DNA of 64,000 bases, from assembly GCF_018070565.1 (NCBI RefSeq), contig NZ_JAGPXL010000008.1:1-64000 (forward strand). Reading direction: 5' to 3'. This document shows, in pieces, positions 21,921-30,083 of the stretch. The DNA comes from Streptomyces sp. B93. GTDB taxonomy: Bacteria > Actinomycetota > Actinomycetes > Streptomycetales > Streptomycetaceae. Below the pieces are notes generated by a model that worked only from the letters and a program-made list of their open reading frames with translations, did not search any database and was not told the origin of the DNA. Every line of letters starts with the position of its first letter. Position 1 is the first letter of the stretch. Position numbers and translations under genes: made by a program.

Positions 21921-22100
21921 ACCGCCCGGCGTCTCGCTACCGCCCGGCGTCTCGCTACCGCCCGGCGTCTCGCTACCGCCCGGCGTCTCGCTACCGCCCG
22001 GCGTCTCGCTACCGCCCGGCGTCTCGCTACCGCCCGGTGTCTCGCTACCGCCCGGTGTCTCGCTACCGGACGGCGTCTCGCTACCGGACGGTGCGCCGCT
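21921..22100. repeat. 18-bp minisatellite, nine clear copies plus a degenerate tenth
   Basis: Unit ACCGCCCGGCGTCTCGCT repeats head to tail from 21921: six identical copies, two with C-to-T, one with CC-to-GA, then a degenerate copy at 22083-22100. It fills the gap between convergent gtrA-like and histidine kinase genes, and the last units include the kinase stop codon (22081-22083). The unit is a multiple of three, which keeps spurious frames open. Confidence 0.95.
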
Positions 22101-23352
22101 CCTCCCCGGCGTCCTTCCTGACCGGCGTACGGGACAGGAACAGCCCGAACACCGGCGGTGTGGCCTGGAGCATCTCCAGGCGTCCCCCGTCCGCCTCCGC
22201 GAGGTCCCGGGCGACCGCGAGGCCGATGCCGGTGGAGTTGCGTCCGCTGATCGCCCGCTCGAAGATCCGGGCGCCGAGGTCGGCGGGGACGCCGGGGCCC
22301 TCGTCGGTGACCTCGATGACGGCCTGGTTGCCGGTGACGCGGGTGCGCAGGGCGACCGTGCCGCCGCCGTGCATCAGGGAGTTCTCGATCAGTGCCGCCA
22401 GCACCTGGGCGACCGCGCCCGGGGTGCCCACGGCGTGCAGATGCCGTTTGCCGGAGCTGACGATGGCGCGGCCCGCGCTGCGGTAGGCGGGGCGCCACTC
22501 GGCGAGCTGCTGCTGGATGACCTCGTCGATGTCGAAGGTGACGGCGGAGCCGGTGCGCGGGTCGCGGGAGTTGGTCAGCAGCCGCTGCACGACGTCGGTG
22601 AGCCGCTCCACCTGGGCGAGGGCGATGGTCGCCTCCTCCTTCACGGTGTCCGGGTCGTCGGTGAGGGTGATCTCCTCCAGGCGCATGGACAGCGCGGTCA
22701 GCGGGGTGCGCAGCTGGTGGGAGGCGTCGGCGGCGAGCCGTCGTTCGGCGGTGAGCATCCGGCCGATGCGCTCGGCGGAGGAGTCCAGGACATCGGCGAC
22801 GCGGTCCAGCTCGGGGACGCCGTACCGCTTGTGGCGGGGGCGGGGGTCGCCGGAGCCGAGGCGTTCGGCGGTCTCGGCGAGGTCGGTGAGCGGGGAGGCG
22901 AGCCGGTTGGCCTGGCGTACGGCGAGCAGGACGGCGGCGATCACGGCGAGCAGCGCCACCGCGCCGATGATCAGCAGGGTGCGGGCGACCTCCCGGGTGA
23001 CCGCCGAGCGCGGCTCCTGGACGGTGACCGTCTCGCCCTCCTCGCCGGTGCGGGTGGCTTCGATGACATCGCCGTCGGGCCGGTCGCCGACCTCGATGGG
23101 GGCGCGGTCGGGGATGCGGATGACGGCGTACTGGTCGGCGCCGAACTGGTCGCCGAGGAGTTCGGGGGTGATCTTCTCGGCGGCGAGGATGCGGCTGTCG
23201 ACGATGCTGGCCAGCCGTACGGCCTCGGAGTCGACGCGCTCCTGGGCGCTGGCGGTGATGGTGCGGGTCTCCACGATGACGAGGGAGACGCCGAACACGG
23301 CGATCACCACGAGCACCACGGCGAGCGTGGACTGGATCAGTCGGCGGCGCAT
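22081..23352 (-). CDS. Two-component sensor histidine kinase
   Basis: 423-aa membrane kinase. Two helices (about 5-27 and 125-145) enclose an extracellular sensor of about 95 residues, then a HAMP region (LASPLTDLAETAERLGSGD). The phospho-acceptor is His in ADASHQLRTPL; the ATPase domain has ALIENSLMHG, DEGPGVP and GIGLAVARDLAE. The response regulator lies 18 bases upstream on the same transcript. The gene ends inside the 18-bp repeat array. Signal unknown. Confidence 0.92.
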   Translation of the reverse strand: MRRRLIQSTLAVVLVVIAVFGVSLVIVETRTITASAQERVDSEAVRLASIVDSRILAAEKITPELLGDQFGADQYAVIRIPDRAPIEVGDRPDGDVIEATRTGEEGETVTVQEPRSAVTREVARTLLIIGAVALLAVIAAVLLAVRQANRLASPLTDLAETAERLGSGDPRPRHKRYGVPELDRVADVLDSSAERIGRMLTAERRLAADASHQLRTPLTALSMRLEEITLTDDPDTVKEEATIALAQVERLTDVVQRLLTNSRDPRTGSAVTFDIDEVIQQQLAEWRPAYRSAGRAIVSSGKRHLHAVGTPGAVAQVLAALIENSLMHGGGTVALRTRVTGNQAVIEVTDEGPGVPADLGARIFERAISGRNSTGIGLAVARDLAEADGGRLEMLQATPPVFGLFLSRTPVRKDAGEERRTVR

Positions 23353-23370
23353 GTCCTCTTACTCACGGGT

Positions 23371-24048
23371 TCAGCTCTTCTCGAAGCGGAAACCCACTCC
23401 GCGCACGGTGGCGATGTAGCGCGGGTTGGCGGCGTCGTCGCCGAGCTTCTTGCGCAGCCAGGAGATGTGCATGTCGAGGGTCTTGGTCGACGACCACCAG
23501 GTGGTGTCCCAGACCTCGCGCATCAGCTGGTCGCGGGTGACGACGCGGCCCGCGTCCCGGACGAGGACCCGCAGCAGGTCGAACTCCTTGGCGGTGAGCT
23601 GGAGTTCCTCGTCGCCCATCCAGGCGCGGTGCGACTCGACGTCGATGCGGACGCCGTGGGTGGCGGGCGGCTGCTGCGGTTCGGCGGCGCCGCGCCGGAG
23701 CAGGGCCCGGACCCGGGCGAGCAGTTCGGCGAGGCGGAACGGCTTGGTGACGTAGTCGTCGGCGCCCGCGTCCAGGCCCACGACGGTGTCCACCTCGTCG
23801 GCGCGCGCGGTGAGGATCAGGATGGGCACGGTGTGACCCTCGGCCCGTAGTCGCCGCGCCACTTCCAGGCCGTCCATGCCGGGCAGGCCCAGGTCGAGCA
23901 CGACCAGGTCGATGCCTCCCTGCATGCCCGCGTCGAGCGCGGCGGGTCCGTCCTCACGTACCTCGACCTCGTAACCCTCCCTGCGCAGTGCGCGGGCCAG
24001 CGGCTCCGAGATGGACGCGTCGTCCTCGGCGAGCAGTACACGGGTCAT
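23371..24048 (-). CDS. OmpR/PhoB-family response regulator
   Basis: 225-aa DNA-binding regulator. Receiver domain: acidic EDD at 8-10, phospho-acceptor Asp in LVVLDLGLPGMDG, Thr in LTARA, Lys in VTKPF. The winged-helix domain occupies about 130-225 (LTAKEFDLLRVLV, WLRKKLGDD, TVRGVGFRF). ATG 24048 begins the canonical MTRVLLAEDD; an upstream ATG at 24075 is less likely. First gene of the pair with the kinase. Targets unknown. Confidence 0.92.
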   Translation of the reverse strand: MTRVLLAEDDASISEPLARALRREGYEVEVREDGPAALDAGMQGGIDLVVLDLGLPGMDGLEVARRLRAEGHTVPILILTARADEVDTVVGLDAGADDYVTKPFRLAELLARVRALLRRGAAEPQQPPATHGVRIDVESHRAWMGDEELQLTAKEFDLLRVLVRDAGRVVTRDQLMREVWDTTWWSSTKTLDMHISWLRKKLGDDAANPRYIATVRGVGFRFEKS

Positions 24049-24441
24049 GGGGTGATGGTAGTCCGCCGCCGACAACTGCCGGGGTGTGACCGCCGAGCCG
24101 GGATTCTCACCTCCTCCGGAAGGGACTCTTACCTCCGCGTGTTAGTGACACGAACCTGTGTCTATAAGGTGAGAAGCTGGAGTGGGCCTTGGAAAGCGGG
24201 TGTCTGGTTCCCTCAATTCCTGTGATCCATCTCTCAAGTCCTTCCATTTCCGGCAGTGGGCTGTCGTATGGTGATGCAACGCCTTTAGCACCGCGGGGAC
24301 CTTTGGCGGCGTATGCACCGGATGGGCACGGTATACGCGCGCTGAAGGTCTTCTTTGTGTGTGCGCTGAAAACGGAACACCCCCACCGAGCGCGCATCGC
24401 TCCAAGCGGACCCACGCGCGTCTTGACAGCAAGGAACGACC
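24049..24441. other. Intergenic region between response regulator and peptide transporter
   Basis: About 390 bases, noticeably richer in A/T than its flanks, without a gene I can support. It must hold the promoters of the regulator pair (minus) and the transporter (plus). I cannot fix -35/-10 boxes; a TTGACA at about 24423 is too close to the transporter start to serve it. Confidence 0.5.
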
Positions 24442-25938
24442 ATGGCGTCCAGCCTGACGAAGGACTCGGTCACCCCGGGCACCCCCGGTTCCGAGAAGAC
24501 CTTCTTCGGCCACCCCCGCGGACTGGCCACTCTCTTCATGACCGAGATGTGGGAGCGTTTCTCCTACTACGGCATGAGGGCCCTGCTCCCCCTGTACCTC
24601 GTCGCGCCGGGCGGGCTGCACCTCAACGCGGCCACCGCGACCGCGATCTACTCCGTCTACGTCTCGCTGGTCTACCTGCTGGCGATGCCGGGCGGCTGGT
24701 TCGGCGACCGGGTCTGGGGTCCGCGCAAGACGGTCGCCGTGGCCGGAGCGGTCATCATGCTCGGCCACCTCACGCTGGCGCTGCCGTCCTCCGGCACGTT
24801 CTACGCCGGTCTCGGTCTGGTCGCCATCGGCTCGGGTCTGCTGAAGGCCAACATCTCCACGATGGTCGGCCACCTCTACAACGGCCCGGACGACCCGCGC
24901 CGCGACGGCGGCTTCACCGTCTTCTACATGGGCATCAACCTCGGCGCGTTCGCCGCGCCGCTGGTGATCGGCACCATCGGTGAGAACGTCAACTGGCACC
25001 TGGGCTTCGCGCTCGCCGCGCTCGGCATGGCGCTCGGCCTCGTCCAGTTCCTGCTCGGCAGCCGCCACCTGGCCGCCAACTCCAGCGTCGTACCGAAGCC
25101 GCTGACCGTCGCCGAGAAGTCGTCCACCCTGCGCAAGGCCGCCTTCTGGGCCGCCCTCGCCGTGGTCTTCTACGCCATCGTCGGCTTCTCCGGCGTCTAC
25201 ACCCTGAACTGGATCCTGGTCCCGCTGACCCTGCTCGGCGTGATCATCCCGGTGATGGTGCTGGTCAACATGAAGCGCGACAAGGAGCTGGACCGCTCCG
25301 AGCAGTCGAAGCTGTCCGCGTACATCTGGTTCTTCGTCGCGGCGGCCGTCTTCTGGATGATCTACGACCAGGGCGGCTCGACCCTGTCGATCTTCGCCGA
25401 CTCCTCCGCCGAGAACAGCGTCCTCGGCTGGGAGTTCCCGGTCTCCTGGTACCAGTCGGTCAACCCGGTCCTGATCATGGCGCTGGCCCCGGTTTTCGCC
25501 TGGTTCTGGCTGGCCCTGAACCGGCGCGGCAAGGAGCCCAGCACGATCGTGAAGTTCGGCTCCGGTCTGGTGCTGGTCGGCGCGTCCTTCTTCCTCTTCC
25601 TCGCCCCGCTGTCGATCGCCGAGGGCGGTCACAAGGCGGCCGCGATGTGGCTGGTGGCGATCTACTTCACGCAGACCGTCGGTGAGCTGCTGCTCTCCCC
25701 GGTCGGCCTGTCCGTCACCACCAAGATGGCGCCCGCCAAGTACGCCTCCCAGATGATGGGCGTCTGGTTCCTGGCCGTCACCGCCGGTGACGCCACGACG
25801 GGTCTGCTCTCCATCGCGGGCGTCGACCTCAACAAGACCGGCGTCGTCGCCATGGAGGCCACGCTCGCCGTGGTCGCGGGTGTGGCGGTGTGGATGTACC
25901 GCGGCAAGGTCAAGGCCCTGATGGGCAGCGTCCGCTGA
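24442..25938 (+). CDS. POT/PTR-family proton-coupled peptide transporter
   Basis: 498-aa major-facilitator transporter importing di- and tripeptides with protons. The hallmark ExxERFxYY motif is EMWERFSYYGMRALLPLYL near residues 35-53. FYMGINLGAFAAPLV is the second PTR signature. About 14 helices can be counted. ATG 24442 has AAGGAA 7 bases upstream. It stands alone and ends in a strong terminator. The dipeptidase genes 5 kb away could process its substrates, but there is no transcriptional link. Confidence 0.92.
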   Translation: MASSLTKDSVTPGTPGSEKTFFGHPRGLATLFMTEMWERFSYYGMRALLPLYLVAPGGLHLNAATATAIYSVYVSLVYLLAMPGGWFGDRVWGPRKTVAVAGAVIMLGHLTLALPSSGTFYAGLGLVAIGSGLLKANISTMVGHLYNGPDDPRRDGGFTVFYMGINLGAFAAPLVIGTIGENVNWHLGFALAALGMALGLVQFLLGSRHLAANSSVVPKPLTVAEKSSTLRKAAFWAALAVVFYAIVGFSGVYTLNWILVPLTLLGVIIPVMVLVNMKRDKELDRSEQSKLSAYIWFFVAAAVFWMIYDQGGSTLSIFADSSAENSVLGWEFPVSWYQSVNPVLIMALAPVFAWFWLALNRRGKEPSTIVKFGSGLVLVGASFFLFLAPLSIAEGGHKAAAMWLVAIYFTQTVGELLLSPVGLSVTTKMAPAKYASQMMGVWFLAVTAGDATTGLLSIAGVDLNKTGVVAMEATLAVVAGVAVWMYRGKVKALMGSVR

Positions 25939-25995
25939 CCCCGGCCGCCTGACGCGGTCGGACCCGTCCGGTCCGACCGGCCCGGTCCGACCGAG

Positions 25996-26028
25996 GGGCC
26001 GCCGCATCCGAGGGGGATGCGGCGGCCC
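25996..26028. terminator. Bidirectional hairpin terminator
   Basis: Perfect 14-bp arms (GGGCCGCCGCATCC at 25996-26009, complement at 26015-26028) with a GAGGG loop, followed by TT, between the convergent transporter and surface-protein genes. Confidence 0.85.
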
Positions 26029-26037
26029 TTCGGCGTG

Positions 26038-27378
26038 TCAGCGCGCCCGCCGTCCCGGCAGGAACGTGAAGATCGCGCCGCCCAGCAGCAGGACCGTGCC
26101 CGCCACCAGGGCGAGGGCCTTGAGGGCGGCGTGGTCCCCCGCCCCGGTCTCGGCGAGGCCGCCGCCGGAGGCCGCCGCGCCGCCGCCCGTCGAGCCGCCC
26201 GTACCGGCCGAACCACCGGAGCCGCCCGAGGCGCCGCTCGCCTGCTCGGTGGTGTCGAGGGTGAGGGAGACCTCGCTCCTGCTCGGGGTGCAGGTCGTGG
26301 TCGTCCCCAGCGCCTCCACCGTCAGCACGCCCGGCGACAGGGTGGATCTGCCGCTGGCGCCCGGTTTGTAGGTGCCGGTCAGGTCGGGGATCTCGATCGG
26401 GTCGCCCGCCTTGACGGCCTCGGCGTTGGTGGGCCCCTCCACATGGACGGTGCCCCGGTCGGCGCCGCCCAGCACGACCTCCATCGACGGCTTCACCGAG
26501 TCCGCGGGGATCTCGGCCGGGCTGTCCATGACGGACGCGCCGAAGCGCACGGTCACAGCGAAGCTTCCGCCGTCCTTGCGGGCGTCGATCCGCACGGGTG
26601 AGGTGGCGCTGCGGTCACCGATGGGGGTCTTGCACTCGTAGGGGACCTGGACCTCCACGCCGGTGAAGTCGGTCTGCCCGCCACCGGTCTCGCTGGGGGA
26701 GGCGGTCGGGGTCCGCGTCGGGGTCTCCGTGGGAGTCTCCGTCGGCGTCTCCGTAGGGGTCCCGGTCGGCGGGGTCGGGGTGCCGGGGCCGCCTCCGTCC
26801 TCGGTCACCTGGATCGTCGCCGCGGGCGTCACCGCCTCGGTCGGGGCGCACTTGGTGTCCGTCGAGATGGGCTTGTTGACATTGATGTCGTAGGCGTCCG
26901 GTGTCAGCGTCACCTCGCCCGCCGCCGTCAGCTTCAGCTTCCCGGTCATGTCGGACAGCTTCATGTCGCTGTTCCTGGGGATCGGCGGGTTCTGCCGGGG
27001 CCCCTCCATCGCGATGTCGCCGCTCTGCGCGCCGCCCGCCTTGAGGGTTCCGGTGGGCTGGACGGTGTCCTGTTCCAGGTCGAGGATGTCGGGGTTCTTC
27101 GAGGCCGCCCGCACGAACTTCCAGACGATCTCCACCTCGTCGCCGACCTTCGCCGTCGCGGGCGCGGTGATCTCCACCTGAGTGGTGCCCTGCACCGGCG
27201 GCAGCCCGGAGATCGCGGGCGGTACGCACTCGGTGGCGTACGACACCTCGGCGGCCTGCGCGGGCCCCGCCGTCAGACCGAGGCCGCCGAGCAGCAGGGC
27301 GACGCCCGCCACGCGGGCCCCGACGCGTCGGACGCCCGGGGTGGTTCTCCTTCGGCTGGCTCTCCTTCGCTCGCTCAC
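26038..27378 (-). CDS. Sortase-anchored surface protein, two related domains, LAETG signal
   Basis: 446-aa secreted wall protein. A signal peptide ends at AQA|AEV (about residue 41). Two related extracellular domains follow, each ending with a Cys-containing CTPS/CAPT-type strand and separated by a Thr/Pro-rich linker (TPTETPTETPTETPT). The second closely matches the single domain of the first gene in this operon (CKTPIGDRSATSP, ALGTTTTCTP) and looks like DUF6801. After a Gly/Ser linker come LAETG, a membrane helix and RRAR, a sorting signal of the LAxTG type used by Streptomyces class E sortases. GTG 27378 overlaps the preceding stop in GTGA. Last gene of a four-gene operon; ligand unknown. 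Confidence 0.85.
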   Translation of the reverse strand: MSERRRASRRRTTPGVRRVGARVAGVALLLGGLGLTAGPAQAAEVSYATECVPPAISGLPPVQGTTQVEITAPATAKVGDEVEIVWKFVRAASKNPDILDLEQDTVQPTGTLKAGGAQSGDIAMEGPRQNPPIPRNSDMKLSDMTGKLKLTAAGEVTLTPDAYDINVNKPISTDTKCAPTEAVTPAATIQVTEDGGGPGTPTPPTGTPTETPTETPTETPTRTPTASPSETGGGQTDFTGVEVQVPYECKTPIGDRSATSPVRIDARKDGGSFAVTVRFGASVMDSPAEIPADSVKPSMEVVLGGADRGTVHVEGPTNAEAVKAGDPIEIPDLTGTYKPGASGRSTLSPGVLTVEALGTTTTCTPSRSEVSLTLDTTEQASGASGGSGGSAGTGGSTGGGAAASGGGLAETGAGDHAALKALALVAGTVLLLGGAIFTFLPGRRAR

Positions 27379-28439
27379 GTGGGTCCCTTTCTGGTGGGGG
27401 CCGTACGGCGGTCTGCCGCGCCCGGGTCGGAGTCCGGGGTGAACCAGGGCAACGTCGGGGCCGGGTCGGCGGGCGGGCCGGGGGACCGACGGGGCCGGGC
27501 CCCGGGCCGGGCGCGGGCCAGATCCGGCAGTCGGGGGAGGTGGGGCCGCGTGCGCGCGCCACCCGGCCGGGGCGGTCGCACCCGGTCGACGACCGCCATG
27601 CCCACCCGGAACAGCGCGGCCGGGACGACCAGGCACACCAGCACCCAGAACAGGGTCACGCCCCAGGGACGGCCGACCCGCCAGGGCTGCTCGGCGAGGA
27701 CCTTCCCGCCGTACTTGAGGGAGACGGTGTAGTCACCGTGCGCGCCGCCCGTCAGTTCGACGGGCAGCCGGATCTGCGTCCTGCGGCCGGGGGCGAGCGT
27801 GCCGCGCCACTGCCGTTCGTCCCACTGCGGCGCGAACACGCCGTGGGCGGTGCCCACCTGGAAGACCGGGTCCCGGACGGCCTGTGTGCCGACGTTGCCG
27901 ACGGTGAAGACCAACTCGCGGGCGGGCGGGGCGCCGAACCAGGTCAGCAGCCCGCTGGAGCCGTCGAGCCGGGTGCCGGTGAGGACCTGGAGACGGCCCC
28001 CCGCCGGTTCCGGGGGCAGCGGCTCGACCGCGTGCCCCGCCACCTGGAAGATCGCGTCGGCCATCGCCTGCGGACCGGTCACGGTCGCCACGTGCACCAC
28101 GCACGGGCACGGCACGGGCGGCTCGGCGACCGGCAGCCGCTTGCGGAACCGGCCCTCGGCGTCGGTGGTGACGGCCCTGCCGTCCCCGTTGGCGCAGGAG
28201 TCGGTGCCCCCGGGCACGCCCCGCGACGGCACGGACTGCCCGCAGACCAGGATCATCAGCAGCGCCCGCGCCCGCCAGCCGTCACCGGTGACGGTGATCG
28301 AACCCCCGGTCCCCGCCTGGGACTTGGACAGCTTCACGCCCGGGCGGTCGTCGTCCGCCGCGGCGGCGGACGCAACCACCGTCCACGGCAGCAGGACCAG
28401 GGCCGCCACCAGCACCGCCACCGCACCCCGCCGTCTCAC
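27375..28439 (-). CDS. Secreted membrane-anchored protein with Ig-like/TIG-like N-domain
   Basis: 354-aa protein. A signal peptide (VRRRGAVAVLVAALVLLPW) is followed by a beta-rich domain (GVKLSKSQAGTGGSITVTGDG, with paired cysteines near SCANG and CPCVVH), a second beta domain that reads like an alpha-mannosidase/COG1470-type repeat (VFTVGNVGTQAVRDPVF), one C-terminal helix (WGVTLFWVLVCLVVPAALF) and a Pro/Arg-rich cytoplasmic tail of about 65 residues. GTG 28439 overlaps the upstream stop in GTGA. The paired domains and cytoplasmic tail suggest a receptor or scaffold for its operon partners. Family not certain. Confidence 0.75.
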   Translation of the reverse strand: MRRRGAVAVLVAALVLLPWTVVASAAAADDDRPGVKLSKSQAGTGGSITVTGDGWRARALLMILVCGQSVPSRGVPGGTDSCANGDGRAVTTDAEGRFRKRLPVAEPPVPCPCVVHVATVTGPQAMADAIFQVAGHAVEPLPPEPAGGRLQVLTGTRLDGSSGLLTWFGAPPARELVFTVGNVGTQAVRDPVFQVGTAHGVFAPQWDERQWRGTLAPGRRTQIRLPVELTGGAHGDYTVSLKYGGKVLAEQPWRVGRPWGVTLFWVLVCLVVPAALFRVGMAVVDRVRPPRPGGARTRPHLPRLPDLARARPGARPRRSPGPPADPAPTLPWFTPDSDPGAADRRTAPTRKGPT

Positions 28440-29305
28440 CGCACCGCTCCCCTCAACTCGCCCCGCCCGTCCGCCGGAACCGCCTCGGCGCGGTCCGCCG
28501 TACGACACCGGTGCCGCCGTACGACGACCCCCGCGCCGATCACCGCCAGCGCCCCGGCGGCCCCCGCCCCCTCGCGCCACGGCACGAAGCGCGCCGACAC
28601 GCGTCCGGTGTCCCGGGCGCCGCCCGCGGCGGTCACCGTCAGCCGCACGTCCACGGCGTCCAGGGCGGGCCGGCCGGTCCAGGGTTCACTGAGCTTCAGG
28701 CGGCGGCCCGGCGGGAGTTCGACGGCGAGGGTGCGCGGGGGGCGGTCGAGGAGCGGGCCGAGGACACCGTCCGCGCGGACGGCGAGCCGGGGCACGAGGG
28801 TGGTGGTGCCGCGGTTGACCAGCTCGTAGGTGATGCGGTCGGCGCGCACCCGGACCCGCTCCACGGTGAGCGCGGCCAACGCCGGGCCGGTGACCCGCAG
28901 CCGGACCGGCACGGAACGGGTGCCGCCGGCGCCGTCCCGGGCGGTGATGGTGGCCCGGCGCGCGCCGGGTGCCGTGTCCGCCGGGACGGTCACGGTGAAG
29001 GGGACCTCGGCGCGGGTGCGGGCGGGCACGCGTACGCCGGTCTCGGCGAGGGTGACCCGGACGGCGCCGGCGGCGCGCAGCCGTACCGTTACCGGGCGCG
29101 TGGCCGGGTTGGTCAGGGTCACGGTGTCCCGCAGCACCGCGCCGGGCGGACCCTCGGCGTAGCAGGCGGGGCGGCCGTCGCCGGAGGGCGCGAACGTCCA
29201 GTGCGGGTCGGCGGCGGCTGCGGCGGGCGCCGGGCCGAGCAGCAGCAGAACGGGCAGCAGGGACAGGGTCGTCGGGGTCAGCGGGACGCGGGCGGTGGTC
29301 GGCAT
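28436..29305 (-). CDS. Secreted membrane-anchored protein resembling DUF916/WxL-partner proteins
   Basis: 289-aa protein with signal peptide (ending near PAAAAA), two Ig-like beta domains (VTLTNPATRPVTVRLRAAG; VERVRVRADRITYELVNRGTTT) and a C-terminal helix (GAAGALAVIGAGVVV) with a short basic tail. The arrangement of two beta domains before a terminal helix recalls the DUF916-DUF3324 proteins encoded with WxL surface proteins in Firmicutes; homology is not proved. ATG 29305 has GGGAG 6 bases upstream. It lies 40 bases after the LPQTG gene and shares a GTGA with the next. Confidence 0.7.
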   Translation of the reverse strand: MPTTARVPLTPTTLSLLPVLLLLGPAPAAAAADPHWTFAPSGDGRPACYAEGPPGAVLRDTVTLTNPATRPVTVRLRAAGAVRVTLAETGVRVPARTRAEVPFTVTVPADTAPGARRATITARDGAGGTRSVPVRLRVTGPALAALTVERVRVRADRITYELVNRGTTTLVPRLAVRADGVLGPLLDRPPRTLAVELPPGRRLKLSEPWTGRPALDAVDVRLTVTAAGGARDTGRVSARFVPWREGAGAAGALAVIGAGVVVRRHRCRTADRAEAVPADGRGELRGAVR

Positions 29306-29345
29306 CGGCGGCTCCCGTGCTCGTACGGACGTCACGCGTACGGCC

Positions 29346-30083
29346 TCAGCGGCGGGCGCGGGTCAGCTGGTCGCGGCGGGTCAGCCACAGGGCTCCCGCG
29401 GTGCCCGCGAGGAGAACGGTGCCGCCGAGGGTGCCGAGGGCGAGGGCGTCGTCCTCGGGGCCGGTCTGCGGGAGCCGCGCGCCGGAGTCGGTGCCGCCGG
29501 TGCCGCTCTGGGAGCCGCCCGTCGAGCCGCCCCCGCCGGACGCCTCGACGTCGAGGGTGAGGGACGGGCCGGGGTCGTTGGTGGGGGTGCAGGTGGTGGT
29601 CGTACCGAGCGCCTTGATGGTGAGCACGCCCGCCGTGAAGGTGACCTTCCCGCTCTTCTTCGGGGTGTACGTGCCGCTCAGGTCACTGATCTTGATGGGG
29701 GTGTCGGCGGGGATCGCCTCCTGGTTGGCGGGCCCGGTGACGGCCATCGTGCCGCTGTCGGCACCGCCCAGCCGGATGGTGGCGCTGGGGTTCATGGCGC
29801 CCTTGCCCAGTTCGACGGGGCTGGAGGAGACGCCCTTCTGCCAGGACATGGTGATCTTGTAGCCGGAGCCGCTCGGCACGCCCTCGATGTCGATGGGGGA
29901 GACGGCGCTCTTGTCGCCGATGGGCGTCTTGCACTGGTAGTCGACGTCGACGACGTCGGCATGGGCCGCGGGGGCGGCCGACAGCACCGCCGCCCCGGCG
30001 AGGGCCGCGACGGATGCGAGCGCGGCGGTGCGTTTCGGGTGGCTGCGTCGAGTCCGGTACGTCTGGTACGCACGGTAGGACAC
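29346..30083 (-). CDS. Sortase-anchored surface protein, one DUF6801-like domain, LPQTG signal
   Basis: 245-aa secreted protein. Signal peptide cleaves near AHA|DVV (residue 43). A single beta-rich domain spans about 45-172 with one disulphide likely between YQCKTP and TTTTCTP. A Gly/Ser/Thr linker leads to LPQTG, a membrane helix and a basic end (RRDQLTRARR). The domain is plainly homologous to the second domain of the LAETG protein. GTG 30083 has GGAGGGACGACC before it. It heads the operon. LPxTG differs from the LAxTG signal of its partner, so the two may not use the same sortase equally well. Confidence 0.85.
   Translation of the reverse strand: MSYRAYQTYRTRRSHPKRTAALASVAALAGAAVLSAAPAAHADVVDVDYQCKTPIGDKSAVSPIDIEGVPSGSGYKITMSWQKGVSSSPVELGKGAMNPSATIRLGGADSGTMAVTGPANQEAIPADTPIKISDLSGTYTPKKSGKVTFTAGVLTIKALGTTTTCTPTNDPGPSLTLDVEASGGGGSTGGSQSGTGGTDSGARLPQTGPEDDALALGTLGGTVLLAGTAGALWLTRRDQLTRARR

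Follow-up and report, generated by a model that had tools for sequence, protein, structure and literature searches.

The systems closest to the one studied here are the WxL or Csc gene clusters, which consist of a small WxL protein, a large WxL protein, the membrane partner WxLIP (CscA), and often a small LPXTG protein, CscD (PMC1534035, PMC9772566, PMC10599100); one published cluster definition asks for two WxL-domain proteins (PMC10599100). These clusters have been described as almost wholly Firmicute, and the WxLIP is regarded as holding WxL to the wall and stabilising it there (PMC9772566, PMC10599100). It has been modelled with a peptidoglycan-binding domain (PGBD) holding the wall protein, and its long PGBD hairpin has been proposed to insert into WxL (PMC10599100). 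In the filamentous actinomycete Actinoplanes, the adjacent and sortase-anchored proteins CwpA and CwpB are, like the long chaplins of Streptomyces, class E sortase substrates, and homologues of CwpA/CwpB are reported absent from Streptomyces (PMC13251363). In this work, we analysed a 64,000-nucleotide stretch of the 8.0-Mb genome of Streptomyces sp. B93 (contig NZ_JAGPXL010000008.1, positions 1 to 64,000; hereafter the window), in which an operon of four genes, A to D, encodes surface proteins whose sequences support an origin in an ancestral operon with a WxL-like protein gene. The four genes are as follows.

29346-30083, minus strand: A, 245 amino acids, GTG start; a secreted beta-sandwich protein with one A-type domain (residues about 43-182) and an LPQTG sorting signal.
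28436-29305, minus strand: B, 289 amino acids, ATG start; a putative WxLIP descendant with a signal peptide, two Ig-like domains, a C-terminal helix, and a shortened PGBD loop.
27375-28439, minus strand: C, 354 amino acids, GTG start; a signal peptide, a neocarzinostatin-like domain, an Ig-like domain, a helix, and a tail with LPWF.
26038-27378, minus strand: D, 446 amino acids, GTG start; an N-domain like that of WxL-like proteins, a Thr-Pro-rich linker, a second A-type domain, and LAETG.

The open reading frames and junctions, read directly, gave the minus-strand order A-B-C-D, with a gap of 40 bases between A and B and a 4-base GTGA overlap at both B-C and C-D, so that the operon is present as the original prediction had placed it. 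A scan with A yielded 191 relatives, the best 80 of which, all Streptomyces, were kept, and each locus was searched for B, C, D, and the neighbouring genes; four loci are cut by contig ends, leaving 76 uncut loci. These hold A-B-C-D in 53 cases, A-C in 19, and A-C-D in 4. The four-gene arrangement is not due to chance, because 53 of the 76 hold all four genes in the same order. Homologues of the four genes thus mostly co-occur, but B and D are dispensable, both being absent in 19 of the 76. Two sortase substrates had been predicted, and both were recognised: A (LPQTG) and D (LAETG) have a signal peptide, an LPXTG or LAXTG motif, a hydrophobic stretch, and a basic end, the last features and the signal peptides of A to D being judged by eye. 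The homologous domain claimed for the outer proteins, in one copy (A) and two copies (D), was also recovered, as the profile of A matched D twice (C-terminal half, E 1.1e-48; N-terminal half, E 1.3e-13). Its earlier label, DUF6801-like, had to be abandoned: PF20611 gave no row in the A or D of the window or in 30 D members, and hhalign against 12 DUF6801 domains gave 3.6 and 3.8 percent. The inner proteins had been read as a signal peptide, two beta domains, and a C-terminal helix each. For C, the AlphaFold2 model bears this out, with a neocarzinostatin-like domain (32-134), an Ig-like domain (148-256), and a 29-residue helix (259-287), while for B, which has no fold model, the architecture comes from homology with two-domain WxLIPs together with the sequence.

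Like a WxL/Csc cluster, the operon places a WxLIP-type membrane protein beside secreted wall proteins, contains an LPXTG protein gene, as such clusters often do, and encodes surface proteins only. Unlike such a cluster, it has two sortase substrates that are larger and belong to one domain family, a further membrane-anchored protein (C), and shortened PGBD loops in B, and no WxL domain was found in it: the profile of the WxL C-domain at E 0.1 matched none of 81 sequences (the window and the 80 loci), although all five controls were found, four of them outside the build set. Judged by the presence of at least one WxL domain, the operon of the window therefore falls outside the WxL gene clusters. 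CwpA and CwpB, which we compared by description and not by sequence, differ from A-B-C-D in that no WxLIP partner is mentioned where the source describes them (PMC13251363).

One line of evidence for a WxL-derived origin comes from B, which had been called DUF916-like. In an hhalign comparison with six actinobacterial WxLIPs, B aligned over 250 columns that include both Ig-like domains and the helix (probability 100 percent, E 1.6e-49), and BLASTP against one actinobacterial WxLIP gave 3e-28 at 33 percent identity. These comparisons support the descent of B from a WxLIP (DUF916), and the likeness to WxL operons that had been noted from the layout is better read as common descent, homology and not analogy. 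In the WxLIP tree, B is a branch with support 100/99, and B together with the WxLIPs of a related genus is nested in the WxLIP family, with the Streptomyces WxLIPs as neighbours (97/91); an earlier tree without the related-genus sequences agrees in nesting B within the family. The tree used 20 of the 57 B rows, four WxLIPs having been dropped (two long branches, two near-copies), and the WxLIP of L208, whose frame is uncertain, was left out of the earlier tree and of the loop measurement given below. The Enterococcus faecium WxLIP1 structures (9i25, 9i1y) were reached both with profiles of these WxLIPs and with profiles that combined WxLIPs and B (best 2.8e-5 and 7.5e-5). PF06030 (WxLIP_PGBD) was found above its cut-off in 15 of 246 genomes, which include some Streptomyces and other Actinomycetota, and secreted proteins adjoin these WxLIPs. 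Single B proteins reach PF06030 and FixG_C slightly under the respective cut-offs: 14 of the 30 B members have a PF06030 match (best 2.4e-5), and the window's own B has a FixG_C match of 25.3 bits against a cut-off of 25.6. For PF11797 (DUF3324, HBD), no row appeared in 30 B members or in the WxLIPs of L152, L153, and L155, and this model may not reach actinobacteria. A homology between B and C was unsupported (hhalign 0.4 percent).

The second line of evidence comes from D. In 17 of the 30 WxLIP loci read, a protein beside the WxLIP has a D-like N-domain, with 112-131 bits for the profile of the D N-domain; the same profile gave 35-59 bits on A or on the second domain of D in six loci. Comparison of D with 15 of these 17 proteins by hhalign gave E 3.3e-31, and BLASTP of the window's D against one of them gave 5e-22, with 37 percent identity over 183 residues, which supports homology between the N-domain of D and that of these Streptomyces proteins. 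The C-terminal part of the latter matched PF13731 (WxL) in 14 of 15 cases, with a best E of 4.8e-4 and 15.9 bits against a cut-off of 25 for the first member, and we call them WxL-like because these matches are weak. One of the 15 has a TIG match, and their middle domain, a possible homologue of domain 1 of C, was aligned with it by hhalign at 57 percent (E 1e-4). The Streptomyces WxL-like operons (L152-L154, L192-L203, L205, L206, L237, L238) share with A-B-C-D a WxLIP homologous to B and a protein with a D-like N-domain; they differ in that this protein ends in a WxL-like domain instead of a sorting signal, in that no C was found, and in that they contain at most, in some cases, a small, weakly A-like secreted protein.

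The two kinds of operon are linked by loci read in three genomes from a different genus within the family (L232-L234). All three carry the run WxL-WxLIP-C-D, and A stands in front of it in two (L232, L233), so that the gene order is that of A-B-C-D apart from the WxL gene. In all three, the run lies beside the same response regulator (82-83 percent identity) and kinase (65-66 percent identity) as in Streptomyces; in L234, a POT-type gene separates it from them. Besides the WxL gene, these operons differ in a D of one domain, not two, and in the long loop of the WxLIP. Their WxLIPs join B with a support of 93/80. Two long PGBD loops were compared, with L011 and L064 left out. Loop 1 has 27-28 residues in 27 WxLIPs, 28 in the three related-genus WxLIPs, and 9 or fewer in 38 of 57 B; loop 2 has 24-29, 29, and 14-20 residues (57 B), respectively. 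The simplest and most likely history would be that the WxL gene disappeared from the Streptomyces line; alternatively, the other genus could have acquired it. Between A and B, no relic of a WxL gene was seen, the lone weak match (L011, E 0.20) sitting where A is cut short.

Several observations weigh against this reading. The loss of WxL, as opposed to its gain, depends on the 93/80 branch and on loop parsimony; either of the two loops could be the inserting hairpin; and no A was found in L234, even at a loose threshold. The best PF06030 score among the B members, 24.8 bits, stays below the cut-off of 27.3, and PF06030 was not listed for the window's own B at any E up to 1. The profile of B alone missed the solved WxLIPs and returned only two weak rows of streptococcal surface proteins. 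B is also the least conserved of the four proteins, with a mean column identity of 44 percent against 63 for A, 56 for C, and 61 for D. Finally, the co-occurrence of B and D was followed on a tree built from three proteins encoded in the flanks. This tree has 78 rows, 74 of them with a state; it was made quickly, and many of its forks are weak. It implies 9 changes for B and 6 for D, and the well-supported branches leave only 3 (D) or 4 (B) independent pairs, with a sign test of 0.25; the link between B and D is suggestive only.

On balance, we consider it fairly probable that A-B-C-D is a WxL-derived operon in which B and C would form a membrane-tethered scaffold placing the sortase-anchored A and D in the wall. 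After the loss of the WxL protein, wall attachment would have passed to sortase, D being anchored by LAXTG and A by LPXTG. D, whose N-domain is of the type found in the WxL protein and which has a sortase signal where that protein has its WxL domain, may have taken the place of that protein. B would then have lost PGBD loop length and become a membrane-tethered scaffold for sortase-anchored partners, first of all D, and would have kept the peptidoglycan-binding domain of the WxLIP. C, with its ectodomain, helix, and tail, would pair with A, because the A-C pair is kept in every uncut locus. The four proteins together would make up a wall-membrane complex of the hyphae, with a possible link to development or to signalling in the envelope, although a biological role at the hyphal surface or in envelope stress is read from the neighbouring genes and is a guess. 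A broader proposal, which we put forward tentatively and hold to be possible but not probable, is that membrane proteins of the WxLIP type are not specific to WxL but serve more generally as scaffolds between wall and membrane, the accessory N-domain being their true client. In Streptomyces, the family would have exchanged a WxL-anchored client for a sortase-anchored one while its loops became shorter, and the related genus would show this anchor swap in a half-way state. The locus is a natural experiment: the same operon either has or lacks the WxL gene, the WxLIP loop changes accordingly, and the covalent anchors remain. Thus, the role of a WxLIP by itself becomes testable in non-pathogenic laboratory strains of Streptomyces, such as S. 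griseus NCTC 13033 (L072), which has the operon, and four proteins without family names gain a testable role. Full-text literature searches of open-licence papers returned no comparable WxL-derived operon.

C was found in all 76 uncut loci, which were ascertained through A, and B without D was seen in none of 53 loci, whereas D without B occurs in four. Two of the 53 four-gene loci are imperfect, L011 with A and B split into short frames and L031 with an irregular B, and in a third, L048, the contig ends within D. In each of the 19 A-C genomes, the profile of D had one match whose size and matched part are those that A itself would give. One of these genomes, L019 (Streptomyces sp. TRM68416), in addition holds short residual stretches of both other genes, B at L236:4396-4482 (19 bits) and D at L236:5848-6198 (44 bits, a fragment with a stop), which favours loss over late gain. 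At the level of the order, 257 of 391 sampled genomes had a match to the A profile at a threshold of E 0.001, of which a few were weak, and D was not found in the 20 genomes searched among the 134 without A. At the level of the class, 38 of 393 genomes matched, and the seven outside the genus of the window are weak and partial matches (E 1e-6 to 5e-4). A genome of a third genus (L235) holds A-B-C-D with both the sigma-factor-side and the kinase-side neighbours.

The same data allow another explanation, namely that B is a decaying relic which had no wall partner after the loss of WxL and is being lost lineage by lineage, so that only A and C (and D) function. B is missing in 23 of the 76 uncut loci, its column identity is the lowest of the four, its PGBD loops are shortened, and the genome of L019 holds the short remnants of B and D. 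Nevertheless, we regard it as unlikely, because the frame of B is open over at least 260 amino acids in 51 of the 52 regular four-gene loci, its overlap with C is exactly 4 bases in 36 of these 52, many of its tryptophan, glycine, and proline positions are invariant, and it never occurs without D. It could also be argued that the four are unrelated surface proteins sharing one operon, with a WxL likeness that reflects common Ig-like architecture and nothing else. Both folded ectodomains (A and C) are indeed beta-sandwiches, Foldseek on C returned generic tandem Ig folds, and the window's proteins match Pfam families directly only below the cut-offs or not at all. Mere co-location is, however, contradicted by the full-length profile homology of B, the homology of the D N-domain, and the related-genus operon with both WxL and WxLIP, which makes this explanation highly improbable.

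C invites a further alternative, in which its neocarzinostatin-like domain would bind a small molecule captured in the wall by A and D for uptake or sensing, with signalling through the cytoplasmic tail of C or through the adjacent two-component genes. The model of domain 1 resembles macromomycin (2mcm; Z 10.7, rmsd 3.2, 95 residues aligned), the range for macromomycin and neocarzinostatin being Z 10.7 to 9.8, and all 30 members matched PF00960 in this domain within an E of 1, the best at 2.8e-7, with 14.7 bits for the window's C against a cut-off of 25. NF040680 was likewise matched in 30 of 30 members (best 2.9e-9; 29.9 bits for the window's C, cut-off 86). However, unrelated Ig folds score like macromomycin on the same model, so the likeness appears to be one of fold only, and in Actinoplanes the deletion of cwpG, a gene with a neocarzinostatin-like domain, left mycelial growth and sporangium formation unchanged (PMC13251363). 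The tail speaks for this reading: an LPWFTPD-type motif after the membrane helix (window 27375-27470) is conserved, and it is lost or altered in 14 of the 19 A-C genomes, with LPWF present in 53/53 A-B-C-D, 4/4 A-C-D, and 5/19 A-C loci. This distribution is only a lead, because 13 of the 19 A-C loci form one clade. The two-component neighbour, kept in the related genus as well, also fits signalling. We think this explanation quite unlikely. A Lys-Gly pair near the end of C (53/53 A-B-C-D, 2/4 A-C-D, 3/19 A-C) may reflect only the ribosome-binding site of D. Domain 2 of C resembles the Ig-like domains of GH2 enzymes (Z 11.1), and the label TIG-like, once given to C, was dropped, as no TIG row was found among 30 members.

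Of the sorting signals of the outer proteins, LP[QRK]TG is present in 78 of 80 A, the exceptions being L011, which is cut short, and L070, and LAXTG is present in 55 of 56 D, the exception being L005. TIGR01167 on the window's A reached 19.8 bits, above the cut-off of 15.9. SrtE1 prefers alanine at the second motif position (PMC5148588), so that A and D may use different sortases; the genome of the window has 10 sortase matches. A was modelled as one confident beta-sandwich, with mean pLDDT of 80-96 in ten-residue blocks over residues 41-180. The solved structure closest to the model (residues 43-184) is 3lso, a membrane-anchored protein of Corynebacterium diphtheriae (Z 9.2, rmsd 3.8, 136 aligned; next 7.1), and this likeness may serve as a fold lead only. 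HtaA was considered as the identity of 3lso and rejected, as a query with the HtaA domain did not list this structure. Foldseek alone on A gave no match below E 0.001, and no credible match came from searching the solved structures with profiles of A, C, and D. Directly ahead of the WxL-like gene, L153 (4197-4748, 183 amino acids, BLASTP 0.003) and L237 (5147-5758, profile 14 bits) encode a small, weakly A-like secreted protein, which may be an A without an anchor.

The features around the operon in the window are the following.

25985..26040, minus strand: GC-rich hairpin just 3' of D, between the convergent D and POT genes; 14-pair stem, z -6.7.
24442..25938, plus strand: POT-type transporter, convergent neighbour; the family name is by reading, with no profile hit.
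22081..24075, minus strand: DraR/DraK-like two-component genes (response regulator and histidine kinase), which adjoin the related-genus operon as well.

The hairpin is a possible terminator without a T-run, and a pattern search around the operon matched no promoter or terminator pattern. From their position, the response regulator and kinase are presumably SCO3063/3062 (DraR/DraK-like), and the other flank is presumably a SigI-type sigma factor with regulators, as in Streptomyces coelicolor. The S. coelicolor gene names for both flanks are those given in PMC9739823. A tandem array of an 18-bp unit (9.2 copies, 97 percent matches) occupies 21921-22086 of the window, where the histidine kinase gene has its 3' end.

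Some WxL-like proteins outside the four-gene operon carry other N-terminal parts. Next to a WxLIP, L155:4634-6142 encodes a WxL-like protein with an HtaA N-domain (PF04213, 5e-42), which we presume to be heme-binding. Also beside a WxLIP, L151:4310-6322 encodes a calcineurin-type phosphoesterase with a purple acid phosphatase N-domain and a WxL-like C-terminus, and the product of L156:7219-9687, again with a WxL-like C-terminus and beside a WxLIP, looks by eye like this phosphoesterase.

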